From Falsibacillus albus (GTDB lineage Bacteria; Bacillota; Bacilli; Bacillales; DSM-25281), in assembly GCF_003668575.1 (NCBI RefSeq), contig NZ_RCVZ01000011.1, positions 62,001 through 126,000 on the forward strand: 64,000 nucleotides of DNA. Direction: 5' to 3'. The notes beneath the pieces are model-generated. The model saw only the letters and a list, made by a program, of their open reading frames with translations. It was not told where the DNA came from and did no database searches. Below, piece after piece: positions 4,985 to 54,223 of the stretch. Numbering within the stretch: position 1 is the first letter of the stretch; each line of letters starts with the position of its first letter. The translations under genes were made by a program, and so were the position numbers.

Positions 4985-5112
4985 GTTGATTGGAGCGAGG
5001 AAAGGTTGGGCGGATGTTCGATTAAGTTCGGCACATCCGTGTGCCAGCATCGAACGACCTCACTTCGAGTGAGGCTCCTCGGAAAGCGAGCATCCTTCTG
5101 CGGAAATCAACC
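4985..5112 (+). repeat. Dispersed palindromic repeat, copy R1 (long form)
   Basis: The element runs from GTTGATTGGAGCG to GCGGAAATCAACC, and its two ends are complementary. Near the middle it holds a nested inverted module, GATGTTCGATTAAGTTCGGCAC against GTGCCAGCATCGAACGACC, followed by a small CTCACTTCGAGTGAG hairpin. Related copies lie at R2-R9. The flanking stretch between dus and yiaA (4770-5248) shows no other gene. Confidence 0.85.
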
Positions 5113-5248
5113 TTACATAACCTTCAATAAATAGCAACAAACTTTACTAAAAGAGCGTTTTAAAAAATCCATACATGTAAAAAATTACTATAATGTATTT
5201 GTAGAATCAGTTTAGGTACTTATTCTGAAAGACAGTAAAGGCGATCGG

Positions 5249-9233: not shown

Positions 9234-10217
9234 ATGAAATTTGAAAAAGTCCGTTGGGGGATCATTGGATGCGGTGATGTGACTGAAGTGAAGAGCGGGC
9301 CTGCATTTCAAAAGATCAAAAACTCGGAGCTCTCTGCCGTTATGCGGAGAAGCAGTGAAAAAGCAAAGGACTATGCGAAAAGGCATCATGTTCCGAAATG
9401 GTACGATGATGCCGATGCGCTTATCAATGATCCCGATGTCGATGCCATTTATATTGCCACCCCGCCAGGATCACATAAGGAGTATACAATTAAAGCGGCA
9501 AAGGCAGGAAAACCCGTATATGTAGAAAAGCCGATGGCGCGTAATTGGGCCGAATGCCAGGAAATGATTGCTGCTTGCAAAGCTGCCGGTGTTCCTCTGT
9601 ATGTTGCTTATTACCGCAGGGCACAGCCGAGATTTTTAAAAATAAAAGAGCTGCTGGAAAGGAGAGCGATCGGTGAGGTTCGTTTCGTTTCAACCAAACA
9701 GTATCAAAAAGCCAGGGAAGCTGTGAAGGATCCAACCAATCTCCCTTGGAGGGTCCAGCCTGAATTGTCCGGAGGAGGACTGTTTTTTGACTTGGCGAGT
9801 CATACGCTGGATATTTTAGATTATTTGCTGGGACCGATCACCGAGGCAGAAGGTTTTGCTTCGAATCAAGCGGGTCATTACCAGGCAGAAGATATTGTGT
9901 CCGGCACATATCGATTTGAATCAGGGATCCATGGAGTAGGGAGCTGGTGTTTTTCTGCATTTGAAGATGAGGATGTGAACGAAATCATCGGCAGTAAAGG
10001 AAAAATTACATTTTCCACGTTTGGAGATGACCCTATTGTGTTGACGACTGCTGATGGAAAAAAGGAATGGAGTTTTGAACGGCCGCAGCATGTCCATCAG
10101 CCGCTTGTCGAAACAATCGTTGCTGAATTAACGGGGGAAACCACACAATGCCCAAGTACTGGAGTGACCGGTGCGAGAACCAATCGGGTCATGGATGCAC
10201 TGGTGAAGAGAAAATAA
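9234..10217 (+). CDS. Gfo/Idh/MocA family oxidoreductase
   Basis: The start ATG 9234 has AAAGGGGAGAAC upstream; a frame opening at 9189 is rejected for lack of a site. The protein has 327 residues. The N-terminal Rossmann fold begins GIIGCGDVTE (NAD(P) loop). The family signature EKPMARN lies near residue 98 and carries the lysine used in catalysis. The C-terminal domain includes SHTLDILDYLLG, supplying the usual Asp/His pair. The enzyme would oxidise or reduce a sugar, polyol or related compound in the cytoplasm. The substrate cannot be told from sequence. It is a single gene between a lipoprotein gene and its own terminator. Confidence 0.85.
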   Translation: MKFEKVRWGIIGCGDVTEVKSGPAFQKIKNSELSAVMRRSSEKAKDYAKRHHVPKWYDDADALINDPDVDAIYIATPPGSHKEYTIKAAKAGKPVYVEKPMARNWAECQEMIAACKAAGVPLYVAYYRRAQPRFLKIKELLERRAIGEVRFVSTKQYQKAREAVKDPTNLPWRVQPELSGGGLFFDLASHTLDILDYLLGPITEAEGFASNQAGHYQAEDIVSGTYRFESGIHGVGSWCFSAFEDEDVNEIIGSKGKITFSTFGDDPIVLTTADGKKEWSFERPQHVHQPLVETIVAELTGETTQCPSTGVTGARTNRVMDALVKRK

Positions 10218-10278
10218 GTAGATTCTATAAGAAAATTTTCTTCCTGAATAAATGCCGAAAATGGAATTATTGGTATGC

Positions 10279-10312
10279 AATGCCTTAATCAAATATGTTA
10301 AGGCATTTTTTG
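10279..10312 (+). terminator. Terminator after Gfo/Idh gene
   Basis: A perfect 10-bp stem AATGCCTTAA/TTAAGGCATT with a 9-nt loop runs into six T. The rest of 10218-10507 holds only the upstream region of mqo, in which I see no clear promoter. Confidence 0.88.
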
Positions 10313-10507
10313 TATTCCAAAGTCGAGATGGAAGGACTTCTCCCTTTTTTACCAGCCACAAATAGTTTATAATTATCAGAGAATAGAAGAAATTTTTAAT
10401 CTAATAATAATTGTAATCGGTTAATTTGTTAAATAAAGACAGAAAACGTATGTAACTAGGTTCGCCAACATCTTTTCTGCAAATTTCAGTGTATAAGGAT
10501 GGTAAAA

Positions 10508-12010
10508 ATGAGCAACAGAGAAACTAAAACAGACGTTATCTTAATCGGTGCCGGTATCATGAGTGCAACTTTAGGGACATTATTGAAAGAACTAGTGCCT
10601 GATATGAATATTAAAGTATTCGAGAAGCTTGATAAATCAGGCGATGAAAGTTCGAACGAGTGGAATAATGCTGGAACGGGGCATGCCGCCTTGTGCGAGC
10701 TTAACTATACTGTCGAGAAGCCCGACGGATCGATCGATATTAGCAAAGCGATTAAAATTAATGAACAGTTCCAGCTCTCCATGCAGTTTTGGTCTTATCT
10801 AGTAAAGAGGGGGCTGATCCAAAACCCGCAGGACTTTATCATGCCGCTGCCTCATATGAGCATGGTGCAAGGTGAAGACAATGTCACGTTTTTAAAAAAT
10901 CGATTTAAAGCGCTGTCAAACAATCCTCTGTTTCAAGGAATGGAATTTTCAGATGATCCAGAAAAACTGATGGAATGGATTCCGCTTATCATGAAGAACC
11001 GTCCATCGAATGAAGCGATCGCTGCGACAAAGATCGAAACTGGCACGGATGTTAACTTTGGTGCTTTAACACGCATGTTATTTGAGCACTTAGAGTCTAA
11101 AAACGTAGAAATCAACTATAAGCATAGTGTCGATAATATTCAGCGCACCAGCGATGGATCATGGGAGTTAAAAGTTCGAAATGTGGACAGTGGAAATGTT
11201 GAGCGCCATCAGGCAAGATTCGTCTTTATCGGGGGCGGAGGCGGAAGCCTGCACTTACTGCAAAAAACAGGCATCCCTGAAGGAAAGCATATTGGCGGCT
11301 TCCCGGTAAGCGGATTGTTCATGGTATGCAATAATCCAGAAGTGGTTGCGCAGCACCGCGCGAAGGTATACGGAAAAGCAAAGGTCGGCGCACCGCCGAT
11401 GTCTGTGCCGCATCTGGATACACGATATATTGATAATAAAAGATCATTGTTGTTTGGCCCCTTCGCCGGCTTCTCACCTAAGTTCTTAAAAAGCGGCTCC
11501 GTCTTTGATCTATTCACTTCGATCAAACCGGATAATATCTTTACGATGTTAGCAGCAGGTGCGAAACAAATGTCATTGACCAAATACTTGATCCAGCAAG
11601 TCATGTTATCGAAGGAACAGCGCATGGAAGAGCTGCGCGAGTTTATCCCGGATGCAAAAAGCGAGGATTGGGATTTAGTCGTTGCTGGTCAGCGTGTACA
11701 GGTCATCAAGGATACGGAAGCAGGCGGCAAGGGAACACTCCAATTCGGTACGGAAGTCATCACGGCTGCTGACGGCTCGATCGCAGCATTGCTTGGTGCA
11801 TCTCCGGGTGCTTCAACAGCGGTACATGTCATGCTCGAAGTATTGGAAAAATGCTTCCCTGAACGTATGACAGAGTGGGAGCCGAAGCTAAAAGAAATGA
11901 TCCCGTCTTTTGGCATCTCGCTAGTCGACAATCCAGAACTCCTGCATGAGGTTCATACCTTTACGGCAGAGGCGCTTGGATTAAGTGAGAAAGAGAGAGC
12001 ATATAGTTAA
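10508..12010 (+). CDS. mqo: Malate:quinone oxidoreductase
   Basis: This is a 500-residue FAD enzyme that oxidises malate to oxaloacetate and passes electrons to the quinone pool at the membrane. The FAD-binding motif [13 protein letters not shown] lies near residue 12. The family signature [20 protein letters not shown] follows at about 50-70, and [17 protein letters not shown] is in the middle. ATG 10508 fits the family length (about 500) and has AAGGATGG nearby; the ATG at 10499 lacks spacing. It is monocistronic with a strong terminator. It acts beside the glyoxylate shunt (aceB, aceA at 54-58 kb) in malate turnover. Confidence 0.95.
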
Positions 12011-31545: not shown

Positions 31546-31640
31546 GTGAGAAAAGAAGTGATGAGTGCGGCTCTGCACGCAGCACTTCTTTTTTAATGGC
31601 TATATTAAACCTTGGTGTTGATATTAGTCTGTTTCCAGCT

Positions 31641-31820
31641 GTTGATTGGAGTGCAAGTCGTAGACTCCGGCGGGAAAAGCGGAGTCAGGGAGACCCCGGA
31701 AGCGTTAGCCGAATAGGCAATAGGCGGATGTTCATTAAGTTCGGCACGTCCGGTGCCAACATCGAACGACCTCACTTCCTGTGAGGCCCGCGGATAGCGA
31801 AGACTTGCACGGAAATCAAC
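31641..31820 (+). repeat. Dispersed palindromic repeat, copy R3 (long form)
   Basis: GTTGATTGGAGTGCAAG to GCACGGAAATCAAC, with self-complementary ends, a CGGGAAAAGCGGAGTC/GACTCCG arm and the nested GATGTTCATTAAGTTCGGCAC / GTGCCAACATCGAACG module. It fills most of the gap 31546-31877 between GH2 and the serine hydrolase; nothing else is seen there. Confidence 0.85.
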
Positions 31821-45675: not shown

Positions 45676-45777
45676 CTGTTCTATGGTCAATTACCCACTT
45701 CTCCTTTTCTTCTATTTTGCTTCCTTCCTCTTTAAAACTATTTTTAGTAGCTGTTTTATATATTGAGTTTGTGCACG

Positions 45778-45993
45778 GTTGATTTCCGCTTCAGGATGCT
45801 TGCTCTCTGAGGAGCCTCACACGAAGTGAGGTCATTCGATGTTGGCACAGGACAAGGAACACTTCGTGCGATGGGTCGCTGCCGAACTTAATCGAACTTC
45901 CTAATACCTCCTCGCTTCGCTGCGTGGTTGCATCTGTCTAGCTAACCGGTCTGCTGTTCCCATCGGAGTCTTGCACCTCCGGCTCCGATCAAC
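45778..45993 (-). repeat. Dispersed palindromic repeat, copy R5 (long form, inverted)
   Basis: The element is read on the minus strand: GTTGATCGGAGCCGGAGGTG at 45993 to GCGGAAATCAACC at 45778. It carries the module GTTCGATTAAGTTCGGCAG ... TGTGCCAACATCGAATGACC, with about 30 extra bases in the loop. It is opposite in orientation to R6, and the two bracket the segregation cassette. Confidence 0.85.
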
Positions 45994-46218
45994 TTCGTAT
46001 GATGAGTCATTTTAAAGAAAAACTGTTAAAAACAACAATCTTCGAGAAAAGAGCCTTTTCAAAAGAATTCCCTTCTCCTTTTGTGCTATTTTCCTCACTT
46101 AGCCTCTCACATCCGTTCATTTCAATTTGCAAAAAAAGAATAATAATTACGAAATTGCAGCACCTTACTGCGGAAGAAGGGGGGATATTTGTTGAATATT
46201 TTTGGATGAAAGTGGATG

Positions 46219-46377
46219 TATACAATTTTGTACACAAGAATACAAAAAGAAAACATTGAGTGTACAATGATGTACACATGTATACAAATGCGTACACATG
46301 TTGATTTTAAGGGATGTGTACAAAATGTAATACAAGTATACAGAAAAGATTACAAGTATTCGTTTTGAATACAACTT
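46219..46377 (+). promoter_or_regulatory. Iteron array, candidate parC centromere
   Basis: Twelve TACA cores occur in 159 bp, at 46221, 46231, 46241, 46263, 46273, 46283, 46293, 46319, 46331, 46339, 46351 and 46370. The first three, and the four at 46263-46293, are exactly 10 bp apart. The central four form tandem units close to TGTACACATG. Ten-bp spacing puts the cores on one face of the helix, as expected for ParR-type ribbon-helix-helix binding. The array ends just upstream of the parM promoter. Within the gene-free stretch 45627-46479, the 46000-46215 part shows nothing else. Confidence 0.75.
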
Positions 46378-46385
46378 AAGAATCA

Positions 46386-46414
46386 TTGACACCGTCCTCC
46401 CCCTTCGATAATCT
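46386..46414 (+). promoter_or_regulatory. Sigma-A promoter of parM-parR
   Basis: A perfect -35 TTGACA (46386-46391), a 17-nt spacer and -10 TAATCT (46409-46414), 66 bp before the parM start. Proteins bound to the iterons immediately upstream could repress it, as in plasmid par operons. Confidence 0.8.
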
Positions 46415-46479
46415 TGAATTAACGGGCTGATAGGAAACTATTAGACTCTCGATCTTTATTTTTCGAAAGGAATGATAAA

Positions 46480-47670
46480 ATGAGCAGCAAATCAAGAGTT
46501 ACAGCAATTGATGTAGGAAATGATTGTGTAAAAGCAATATTTGGGAAATTCGACCATGAATTATACATACCTAATGTAATCGCACGTGATACAGAGGACC
46601 GTCCGGTAATTGGAATCGAAGAGTTAAATGACAAGGATCCGCTCGATGGTATTCATATCCGCGTTCACTCCCCTGCTTTAAAAGAAAATAATGTCATTTA
46701 CCGTGTTGGAAATCTGGCAACAAAAAGTGATAATCCGACAGAATTAGATCCTGGCAGCAGCAAATCCGAAGAAGATCAAACATTGGTTATGCTTTTTGCC
46801 TCTCTTGCGTTGGACGCAGTCAGAGAAGAAAATTCGGAAATTTTCAAAAAGTCAAATAATGTAATCGATGCAAACTACACGCTTGGTACGGGGCTTCCTC
46901 TTCGTGAAGTAAAGGAAGGAAAGGATGTTGGCTACCGTGCTCAATTATTGAGCTCTGTCCATCAGGTAGAGTTTTTGGTGACGCCAAAATATCAAGGGCT
47001 AAAAGTAAATATTAAATTTGACCAAGTGAAAGTGTATCCGGAAGGCTTTGCAGCTTATATCAACCTCGTAATGGATAACGACTTAAACATCATCAATCGC
47101 GATTTGATCGATAAACGCATCTTGATCCAGGATATCGGCGGTTTGTCTACAGATGTGGCAGTCATTAAAAACCGCAATGTCGACGATGACAAAGCACAAG
47201 GCTTTAACATCGGCGTATCCGAAGCACTTGAACAAATCCGTGAAGAAATCAGGTCAAAGCATGGCGTCGAACTTGATAGCCGCAGGGATGTCGTTGACAT
47301 CATCACACGCAAAAATGACCGAAATCATATCATGGTGAAAGGAAGCCGGACAAGCGTCCACGATATCACCGACCGCATTTTGCTTGAGTTGGCGAAAAAA
47401 CAATACCGTTTCTTGCGCAATGTATGGCAAAAGAACTCCCAAACGGAGATCTGCTACTTTGTCGGCGGAGGTTCCATGGTATTGAAGGATTACCTCAAAA
47501 CCTTGAATAATAACCTTGATGGCTACAACATCGATTTCTTTGAGGATGAAAAAGAAAGCATTTGGATGATGGCCAATGCCTACTATAAACTCATCTCGGA
47601 TTTTGTAAGGAAGAACAATAAAGAACAACCTAAACCTAAAGAAAAAGAAAAGCAGGCTGCAGCCAAATAA
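46480..47670 (+). CDS. parM: ParM/StbA-family actin-like segregation ATPase
   Basis: The 396-residue protein has actin-fold landmarks: VTAIDVGNDCVKAIFGK (phosphate-1), RILIQDIGGLSTDVAVIKN (phosphate-2, near residue 212) and EICYFVGGGSMVLKDYL (adenosine motif, near residue 328). IDANYTLGTGLPLREVKEG is the ParM/StbA family segment. The C-terminus is a Lys/Pro/Glu/Ala-rich tail. Members polymerise into filaments that push or pull ParR-bound DNA. AAAGGAATG lies 7 nt before the ATG. An RHH/acidic adaptor gene follows in the same operon and the iteron array precedes it. It is unlike MreB in motif spacing and context, so a cell-shape role is unlikely. Confidence 0.88.
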   Translation: MSSKSRVTAIDVGNDCVKAIFGKFDHELYIPNVIARDTEDRPVIGIEELNDKDPLDGIHIRVHSPALKENNVIYRVGNLATKSDNPTELDPGSSKSEEDQTLVMLFASLALDAVREENSEIFKKSNNVIDANYTLGTGLPLREVKEGKDVGYRAQLLSSVHQVEFLVTPKYQGLKVNIKFDQVKVYPEGFAAYINLVMDNDLNIINRDLIDKRILIQDIGGLSTDVAVIKNRNVDDDKAQGFNIGVSEALEQIREEIRSKHGVELDSRRDVVDIITRKNDRNHIMVKGSRTSVHDITDRILLELAKKQYRFLRNVWQKNSQTEICYFVGGGSMVLKDYLKTLNNNLDGYNIDFFEDEKESIWMMANAYYKLISDFVRKNNKEQPKPKEKEKQAAAK

Positions 47671-47683
47671 ATAAGGTGATTTC

Positions 47684-48256
47684 ATGACGAAAAAGGGAAT
47701 TGAAAGGGGGCAGGCCATCACTTTTCGCCTACCTTCCGACACACCAGACCATATCCTGAAGCAATTACAGAAGCTGAAGGAAACAGAAAGAAGGAACTTT
47801 TCGAGTACGATTGCCCAATTCATTTTGGAAGGGGTCAATAATTCGCTATCAAAGGAGAGGGAGACGGTCACCATCCCTCTGCCGAAGCAATTAAGCAAGG
47901 AGCAGCGTAATTGGCTGCGCCATTCCCATTCTGAAGCATTGCTTGGCAGCATCATTTATCAATTATTGGCGGATCCGATGAGAGCGACATCTGTATTGGC
48001 GTCATTGAACAGCGGTGCGATCGATATAGATGAGGCACTTTATCTTCAGGAAGAAATTGAAGAAAATGAAGACGTGCAATTTGAAGAAATTGTAGATGAT
48101 TCACCATCCGTTGATAACGCTGATTTCGAAGATGATTTGATGAACTTTGATTGGGATCAAGCCAAACATGGGCATGCTTCGACGGAAGAAGACAATGATG
48201 AAGAGGAAGACGCCGACGATTTACTGGGCGATTTCCTTTCCAAAATGAATAAATAA
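47684..48256 (+). CDS. parR: ParR-like adaptor with RHH domain and acidic tail
   Basis: The 190-residue protein starts 13 bp after parM. The N-terminal 60 residues look like a ribbon-helix-helix DNA-binding domain: strand AITFRLPSDT, then helices HILKQLQKLKETE and NFSSTIAQFILEGVNN. A second basic helical part (about 70-125) is followed by a strongly acidic stretch (about 125-180). The protein ends in a short amphipathic LLGDFLSKMNK, which could be the filament-binding end, as in ParR. No sequence-level family name is certain; the call rests on architecture, gene order and the adjacent iterons. Confidence 0.75.
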   Translation: MTKKGIERGQAITFRLPSDTPDHILKQLQKLKETERRNFSSTIAQFILEGVNNSLSKERETVTIPLPKQLSKEQRNWLRHSHSEALLGSIIYQLLADPMRATSVLASLNSGAIDIDEALYLQEEIEENEDVQFEEIVDDSPSVDNADFEDDLMNFDWDQAKHGHASTEEDNDEEEDADDLLGDFLSKMNK

Positions 48257-48316
48257 ATTATTTTTTCAAAAGTTGTTATTGTGATCGTTTTTCTTGTAAA
48301 TCATTGATCAATTGCT

Positions 48317-48498
48317 GTTGATTGAAGCTGAAGGTGCGTGACTCCGGAGGGATTCGTGGGCAGGGTGAGACCCCGCAGCGGAGCGAGGAGAGGTAAGGCG
48401 GATGTTCGATTAAGTTCGACACGTCATGTGCCAACATCGAACGACCTCATTTCGTGTAAGGCCCCTCGGAAAGCGAGCATCCTTCCGCGGAAATCAAC
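48317..48498 (+). repeat. Dispersed palindromic repeat, copy R6 (long form)
   Basis: GTTGATTGAAGCTGAAGGTG to CCGCGGAAATCAAC, with the nested module GATGTTCGATTAAGTTCGACAC / GTGCCAACATCGAACGACC and the CCCCGCAGCGGAGCGAGGAG block also seen in R7. It lies just after parR. Confidence 0.88.
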
Positions 48499-48537
48499 TT
48501 AGCAGTAAACCATGCGAAAACAGCTTAAATAAATGTA

Positions 48538-48566
48538 AAACGGGAGGCTGGGCTTCCCGTTTTTTG
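48538..48566 (+). terminator. Terminator behind parMR and repeat R6
   Basis: Stem AAACGGGA / TCCCGTTT with a 9-nt loop and a T tract. It is the first terminator found after parR, which places repeat R6 inside the par transcript. Confidence 0.75.
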
Positions 48567-50502: not shown

Positions 50503-50625
50503 GGTTGATTGGAGCGGAAGGTGTGAGACTCAGGAGGGATCAGCGGACTGGGTGAGACCCCGCAGCGGAGCGAGAGGCTCACCGTCCGCCCCTCGGAAAG
50601 CGAGCATCCTGCCGCGGAAATCAAC
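50503..50625 (+). repeat. Dispersed palindromic repeat, copy R7 (short form)
   Basis: GGTTGATTGGAGCGGAAGG to GCCGCGGAAATCAAC, without the nested GATGTTCG module: the centre is GTGAGACCCCGCAGCGGAGC, then GAGGCTCACCGTCCGCC. The ends are complementary over more than 15 bases. Confidence 0.88.
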
Positions 50626-50708
50626 TTTGCACTACTTTTATTCAATAGCAGGATCCATTACGGGAAAAGCATTCTCTTTCATTGAAAACGCTTCCTTAAA
50701 ATTCGGGG

Positions 50709-54170: not shown

Positions 54171-54223
54171 GGGTCAGGTGTGAGGCGCCTCGGAAAGCGA
54201 GCATCCTGCAGGGGAAATCAACC
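54171..54223 (+). repeat. Dispersed repeat remnant R8
   Basis: 3' part only: GGTGTGAGGCGCCTCGGAAA, then GCGAGCATCCTGC and GGGGAAATCAACC. The rest of the gap 54134-54553 shows nothing else that I can name. Confidence 0.75.

Follow-up and report, generated by a model that had tools for sequence, protein, structure and literature searches.

The stretch of DNA analysed here (the window) comprises 64,000 nucleotides of Falsibacillus albus, bases 62001–126000 of a 178,939-base contig in a genome of 4.49 Mb. The sequence-only reading had proposed that it carries a complete parC-parM-parR-like actin segregation cassette, and a parC-like array, a promoter, parM and parR were each present at the locus. 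The features are as follows.

46217–46373, + strand: parC-like centromere array of TGTAYACA-type palindromic sites (TGTATACA, TGTACACA and GTTTAC variants).
46296–46314, + strand: central spacer splitting the half-arrays; consensus in relatives ATGTTGATATATAAGGAT (126-region alignment, columns partly conserved).
46386–46414, + strand: sigma-A-type promoter TTGACA-N17-TAATCT, an exact match directly 3' of the array.
46466–46471, + strand: parM ribosome binding site AAAGGA; GAAAGGAATGAT is kept ahead of the start codon in relatives.
46480–47670, + strand: parM, encoding an Alp7A-type actin-like ATPase of 396 aa (Pfam matches, orthologue conservation).
ParM residues 11–14 (DVGN), 218–225 (DIGGLSTD) and 329–332 (GGGS): nucleotide-site motifs, most residues invariant.
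47684–48256, + strand: parR, encoding a predicted DNA-binding adaptor of 190 aa, 13 nt 3' of parM.
ParR architecture: N-terminal RHH-like region (RGQAITFRLPSDTP...RRNFSS), helical middle, variable acidic linker and conserved C-terminal LLGDFLxxMNK tail.
48542–48557, + strand: terminator-like hairpin with a T-run, a possible end of the parMR transcript (consensus scan, near chance level).

The genes around the cassette are chromosomal housekeeping genes, as had been claimed. ugpB-like and glpQ-like genes lie 5' of it, and an MFS efflux gene, hom-thrC-thrB and aceB-aceA lie 3'; mqo was identified as well, at window positions 10499–12010. The window's contig carries dnaA at 9306–10619, followed by spoIIIJ, mnmG, noc and Soj- and Spo0J-like genes, and the start of parM is about 98 kb from dnaA. 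Since dnaA, noc, soj and spo0J are on the same contig, the cassette is chromosomal and not plasmid-borne, and a plasmid or megaplasmid contig, which had been named among the findings that would undo the proposal, is contradicted. A search for parS sites in the window and in the initial 20 kb of the contig found none. An intergenic repeat reaching about 190 bp in length (70–95% identical, in both orientations) flanks the cassette at 45757–45930 and 48314–48500 and recurs at 4992–5133, 31638–31820, 50504–50634 and 54178–54223 and in several places in L159–L164; it resembles a REP/bcr-type repeat more than the ends of an element.

The upstream array is the window's densest stretch of its motifs, with TACA 12 times and TGTA seven times within 46217–46377, which agrees with the roughly twelve TACA iterons originally described. 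TGTAYACA palindromes, counted on both strands, number 12 in the window; 1.2 are expected, and 100 shuffles gave four at most. The sites are arranged in blocks with start-to-start spacings of 8 and 12 nt. Iterons lie 5' of parM in nearly all loci: across 126 non-identical upstream regions of relatives, strict TGTAYACA-type sites averaged 5.9 per region compared with 0.19 in dinucleotide shuffles, and a looser count of GTNNAC-type sites gave a median of 10, placed 109–275 bases 5' of the start codon with start-to-start spacings of 8, 12, 20 and 42. Alignment of these 126 regions displayed TGTATACA-N4-TGTATACATGTATACA blocks divided by a spacer like TGTTGATATATAAGGAT, and after the array a conserved TTGAC promoter element and then the GAAAGGAATGAT start region. 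A genome-wide search with a three-site array pattern hit the cassette locus only, apart from one further match that did not rise above the reversed-pattern control; parC is single in each genome, and it lies near oriC as parS does. In one relative, Peribacillus alkalitolerans (L047), the array is gone and unrelated repeat-like intergenic sequence stands in its place, with parM and parR intact.

The strong sigma-A promoter claimed at the start is an exact TTGACA-N17-TAATCT sequence, the sole match in the window (0.03 expected), and its -35 element is conserved in the alignment of relatives; a general promoter scan, which performed close to chance, overlooked it. Because the promoter adjoins the array, array-bound ParR could repress it, and we infer that parMR may be autoregulated by ParR.

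ParM is by its sequence an actin-fold ATPase of the ParM/Alp group. It scored 132 bits against the Pfam family PF22128 (Alp7A_like_C; cut-off 22), and MreB-like_C and ALP_N were also above cut-off. The product had been called a ParM/StbA actin homologue; the StbA/ParM superfamily holds, and the nearest named family is Alp7A and not the R1 StbA family. An AlphaFold2 model matched the folds of BtParM, Dh-cParM1 and Alp7A (5ec0), although the model itself is weak (pLDDT 55), probably because the relatives are too alike. Across 128 orthologues, conservation exceeds 95% in 225 of the 396 ParM columns. One parM match (L129, G259:C1:4559953-4561122) contains a single in-frame TAG, possibly a stop read through before an extended frame.

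parR lies directly 3' of parM, with a gap of 0–19 bases, at all 128 loci. Its product had no match in Pfam, NCBIfam or PHROG, and searches of the PDB by sequence and by fold gave nothing usable; its homology came solely from comparison with the proteins encoded at the parR position of plasmids. The first 95 residues are 42% identical to that protein of plasmid pBM69 (E 9e-28; hhalign 99.6%), and ParR relatives are encoded by 22 plasmids. The N-terminus has a strand-like motif followed by predicted helices at 22–34 and 39–60 (AlphaFold2 monomer of low confidence, pLDDT 64). Over the 128 loci, the N-terminal half and the C-terminal tail are kept and the acidic linker between them is variable, so that the acidic part and tail attributed to this protein were both recovered. 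By analogy with known ParRs, the LLGDFLxxMNK tail is likely to be the helix that contacts ParM.

We then looked at how widely the cassette is distributed. Some match to ParM was present in 226 of 397 sampled genomes of the order, and removal of 20 with weak E-values left orthologues in 206. An orthologue of at least 76% identity was present in 26 of 61 genomes (60 relatives plus the window's own), while the one same-genus genome compared was without the cassette. At class level, orthologues of at least 80% identity were found in two further families, and the remaining matches were copies 38–44% identical. A scan of GTDB contigs returned 435 stretches encoding a ParM relative; the best 80 of these include Metabacillus, Mesobacillus, Peribacillus, Psychrobacillus, Alkalihalophilus, Heyndrickxia, Jeotgalibacillus and Evansella among their genera. 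Two contigs filed under Gram-negative names, L056 (JAGGRA010000005.1, 'Pseudomonas sp. ISL-84') and L093 (JAGGQZ010000007.1, 'Chryseobacterium sp. ISL-80'), carry the Bacillales cassette at 85–87% identity and are probably mislabelled or contaminated assemblies. The Alp7A C-domain family was absent from 14 control genomes, B. subtilis included. Since about half of the order, B. subtilis among them, does without the cassette, it is not essential for chromosome segregation.

Where present, the cassette is conserved to the level of DnaA. In 23 genomes the mean pairwise identity was 81% for ParM, 83% for DnaA and 55% for ParR, and the distances of ParM and DnaA were correlated (Mantel r 0.73; no value as high in 2000 permutations), the pattern expected under vertical inheritance. 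The hom product, whose gene is 4 kb from the cassette in the window, is 50–60% identical to the window's in the same genomes.

The sequence-only reading had left three options for a type II par system in a chromosome, namely a domesticated plasmid remnant, an integrated element, or a chromosome- or cell-biology filament system of its own, and had suggested searching both proteins against plasmid families and mapping synteny. Plasmid relatives were found by this search, with ParM at no more than 44% identity and ParR at 42% over 95 aa. ParM was matched by 95 of 72,556 plasmid records, none above 44% identity; these plasmid relatives are 35–44% identical and have the same gene order as the chromosomal cassette. 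When the chromosomal ParMs were placed in a tree together with five plasmid-type proteins, they fell on one side of a branch with support of 100/100; the plasmid side of that tree is uncertain owing to long branches. Diverged plasmid-type ParMs, 35% identical, occur elsewhere in the same genomes: one (L134, G176:C1:2349345-2350445) lies at 2.35 Mb, far from oriC, and holds an in-frame TGA, and a second (L135, G327:C2:187994-189097) is on a separate 250-kb contig. Phage records yielded two weak, partial matches only, and a phage origin of the cassette was rejected on that account; PADLOC gave no match at the cassette, and a defence system was likewise rejected.

As for synteny, the parM-parR pair is kept at 128 of 128 loci, and the flanks are variable. 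No family of neighbouring genes recurred at more than 18 of the 81 loci. Across 80 loci the immediate neighbours were of 44 kinds upstream and 39 kinds downstream, giving 56 contexts, and comparison of these 80–81 loci revealed no constant element genes or ends around the cassette. A stray plasmid remnant or integrated element is therefore poorly supported, because the cassette is widespread (206 of 397 genomes), forms a fully supported separate clade, is conserved to the level of DnaA and has ends without a constant neighbour. An ancient plasmid origin of the cassette family is possible. The shared gene order of the plasmid members would also fit a domesticated remnant of an integrated plasmid that no longer moves DNA, its filament being reused elsewhere or the whole being a decaying relic. 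We consider this improbable: the frames are intact, 225 of 396 ParM residues are nearly invariant, parC and the ParR tail are co-conserved, inheritance is vertical and there are no constant plasmid neighbours.

Alp7A-type plasmids related to the cassette occur in the same genera as the chromosomal one, which could mean that a plasmid-incompatibility or decoy system resides in the chromosome, or that the host uses the cassette against plasmids with a like parC. However, the parC-like sites of the plasmids, GCATAC and GGATAC, are unlike those of the chromosomal array, the plasmid ParMs are at most 44% identical, PADLOC did not recognize the cassette, and an arms race would not yield DnaA-level conservation or a fixed place. 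Such a role is very unlikely.

We next mapped the cassette relative to the replication origin. In all 45 genomes with a mapped dnaA, from 25 genera, it lies 35–287 kb to the left of dnaA and is transcribed away from the origin; relocation or a switch of arm was seen in 0 of 45. Position controls were provided by hom and by a whole-arm comparison, because pepT, another neighbour, is itself partly linked to the origin (within 260 kb of dnaA in 16 of 25 genomes). hom is within 260 kb of dnaA in one of 44 genomes, the window's own, and is otherwise scattered over both arms. For the background of gene order we compared five left arms: that of the window's genome and, over 300 kb, those of four genomes that each represent another family. 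The share of reciprocal best hits between the arms was 96% at 0–15 kb, 79% at 15–30 kb, 32% at 30–60 kb, 9% at 60–100 kb and 13% at 100–170 kb, and beyond 45 kb from dnaA in the window's genome mqo, parM and parR alone were present in five of five arms. That the cassette is kept where 87–91% of genes lose their place pairwise is a strong hint of a constraint on its place. It is also possible that the place was inherited from an ancestral one at the edge of the conserved oriC block, relocation being rare. Origin proximity might then be mere ancestry and say nothing about cargo, a reading that fits the location of the locus at the edge of that block and the like behaviour of mqo; it is unlikely, as the neighbours have turned over, most genes of the zone have lost their place and none of the 45 genomes displayed a relocation or arm switch.

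We therefore return to the third option, a filament system in its own right, which fits best of the three, the cassette being always origin-proximal and on the left arm. Its parts are conserved together, in single copy, at the level of DnaA and at a constant place near the origin. This conservation in sequence and place indicates that the cassette probably helps to move or position the chromosome origin. We consider it, with a probability of roughly 0.6, to be a functional type II (ParMRC) partition module of the chromosome that has the replication-origin region as its cargo; binding of ParR to parC, filament dynamics and the origin as cargo are what we infer from these data. The original interpretation as a whole is thus partly supported.

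In ParMRC systems, ParR dimers coat the iterons and form a scaffold that presents their C-terminal tails, by which the ends of ATP-ParM filaments are captured, and ParR commonly represses the promoter beside parC. Following this scheme, the parC array, 98 kb to the left of dnaA, would be coated by ParR dimers, which when bound there would repress the adjoining parMR promoter. The C-terminal tails of the ParR-parC complex would capture and cap ParM filaments, and ATP-driven filament growth might take place between the two parC copies just made by replication, or between one of these and a pole. The origin regions would in this way be pushed or held apart by ParM filaments, in parallel to Soj-Spo0J-SMC. 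Since Soj-Spo0J is also present, the ParMRC module would be redundant or specialised, and capture of the prespore chromosome may be its main use. A tentative broader statement, on which we place appreciably less weight, is that about half of the Bacillales possess an actin-filament chromosome spindle acting on a single parC left of oriC, by which sister origins are segregated or positioned, and which in sporulating cells brings the origin flank into the prespore as a counterpart of RacA.

Actin-driven DNA segregation is known for plasmids. DnaA-level conservation less than 300 kb from oriC over 25 genera makes the cassette a strong candidate for actin-driven segregation of a chromosome, which may explain prespore chromosome capture in spore formers other than B. 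subtilis. Relatives with complete genomes include Alkalihalophilus pseudofirmus OF4, Heyndrickxia coagulans 36D1 and Cytobacillus oceanisediminis 2691.

A link to sporulation was sought through SpoIIE, which is missing from 17 of the 397 genomes. The cassette was present in none of these 17 compared with 206 of the 380 genomes with SpoIIE (hypergeometric 2.7e-6, uncorrected for phylogeny); the real weight of the association is much smaller, because the 17 genomes represent only about seven genera. The DNA that becomes trapped in the B. subtilis prespore is centred slightly left of oriC, and the ram sites of RacA lie mainly within 250 kb left of oriC (PMC4949633). The parC zone, 35–287 kb left of dnaA, coincides with this ram zone, which is a correlation. 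A narrower form of our preferred reading is accordingly conceivable, in which the cassette would act at asymmetric division, anchoring the left flank of the origin in the prespore or dragging it there, and so do the job of RacA-ram. The SpoIIE distribution, the shared left zone (PMC4949633) and the lack of this ParM family in B. subtilis are in its favour, but the SpoIIE-less genomes come from so few genera, many spore formers are without the cassette, and the visible promoter is of sigma-A type with no obvious Spo0A or sigma-H site. We regard this form as doubtful, slightly more so than the spindle.

Finally, we compared the cassette with known systems. Its ParM shares the PF22128 Alp7A_like C-domain of Alp7A-Alp7R from the B. 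subtilis plasmid pLS20, Alp7A being matched by fold (5ec0). The cassettes of pBM69 of B. methanolicus and other plasmids have a ParM 35–44% identical, a downstream ParR homologous over about 95 N-terminal residues and TACA-type repeats upstream. Unlike these plasmid cassettes, the present one is chromosomal, single-copy and conserved to the level of DnaA, and it encodes a longer ParR with an acidic linker and conserved tail; its iterons (TGTATACA) also differ from the plasmid GCATAC and GGATAC sites.

Chromosome-encoded ParMs (cParMs) were described in 2025 by Ali et al. in Desulfitobacterium and Clostridium, with Dh-cParM1, Cb-cParM and Bt-cParM1/2 among them; Bt-cParM of B. tropicus and further examples were unstudied and said to be conserved in Bacillus, no conserved cparC was found among Clostridium strains, and ParCMR had yet to be implicated in chromosome segregation (PMC12270681). 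A term search of that article yielded no passage on where cParM genes lie relative to oriC (PMC12270681). In the searchable literature, which covered few subscription papers, we found no closer report of a chromosomal ParM from Bacillus or Bacillaceae. An origin-linked, order-wide chromosomal ParMRC appears unreported in searchable text; Bt-cParM of B. tropicus may be a member of the present family. The concept of a chromosomal ParMR is common to the cParMs and the present cassette, and Dh-cParM1 was among the top fold matches; parC, parR and place are conserved here across 25 genera.

Soj-Spo0J-parS (ParABS), present in the same genome, likewise combines a centromere near oriC with an adaptor and an NTPase, but it uses a ParA-type ATPase without an actin filament, and short dispersed parS sites in contrast to the one iteron array of the cassette. 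In the RacA-ram system of B. subtilis, DNA sites left of oriC position the origin region (PMC4949633), as proposed for the cassette; RacA, however, is a sporulation-specific anchor between DNA and membrane that works without an NTPase or a filament.
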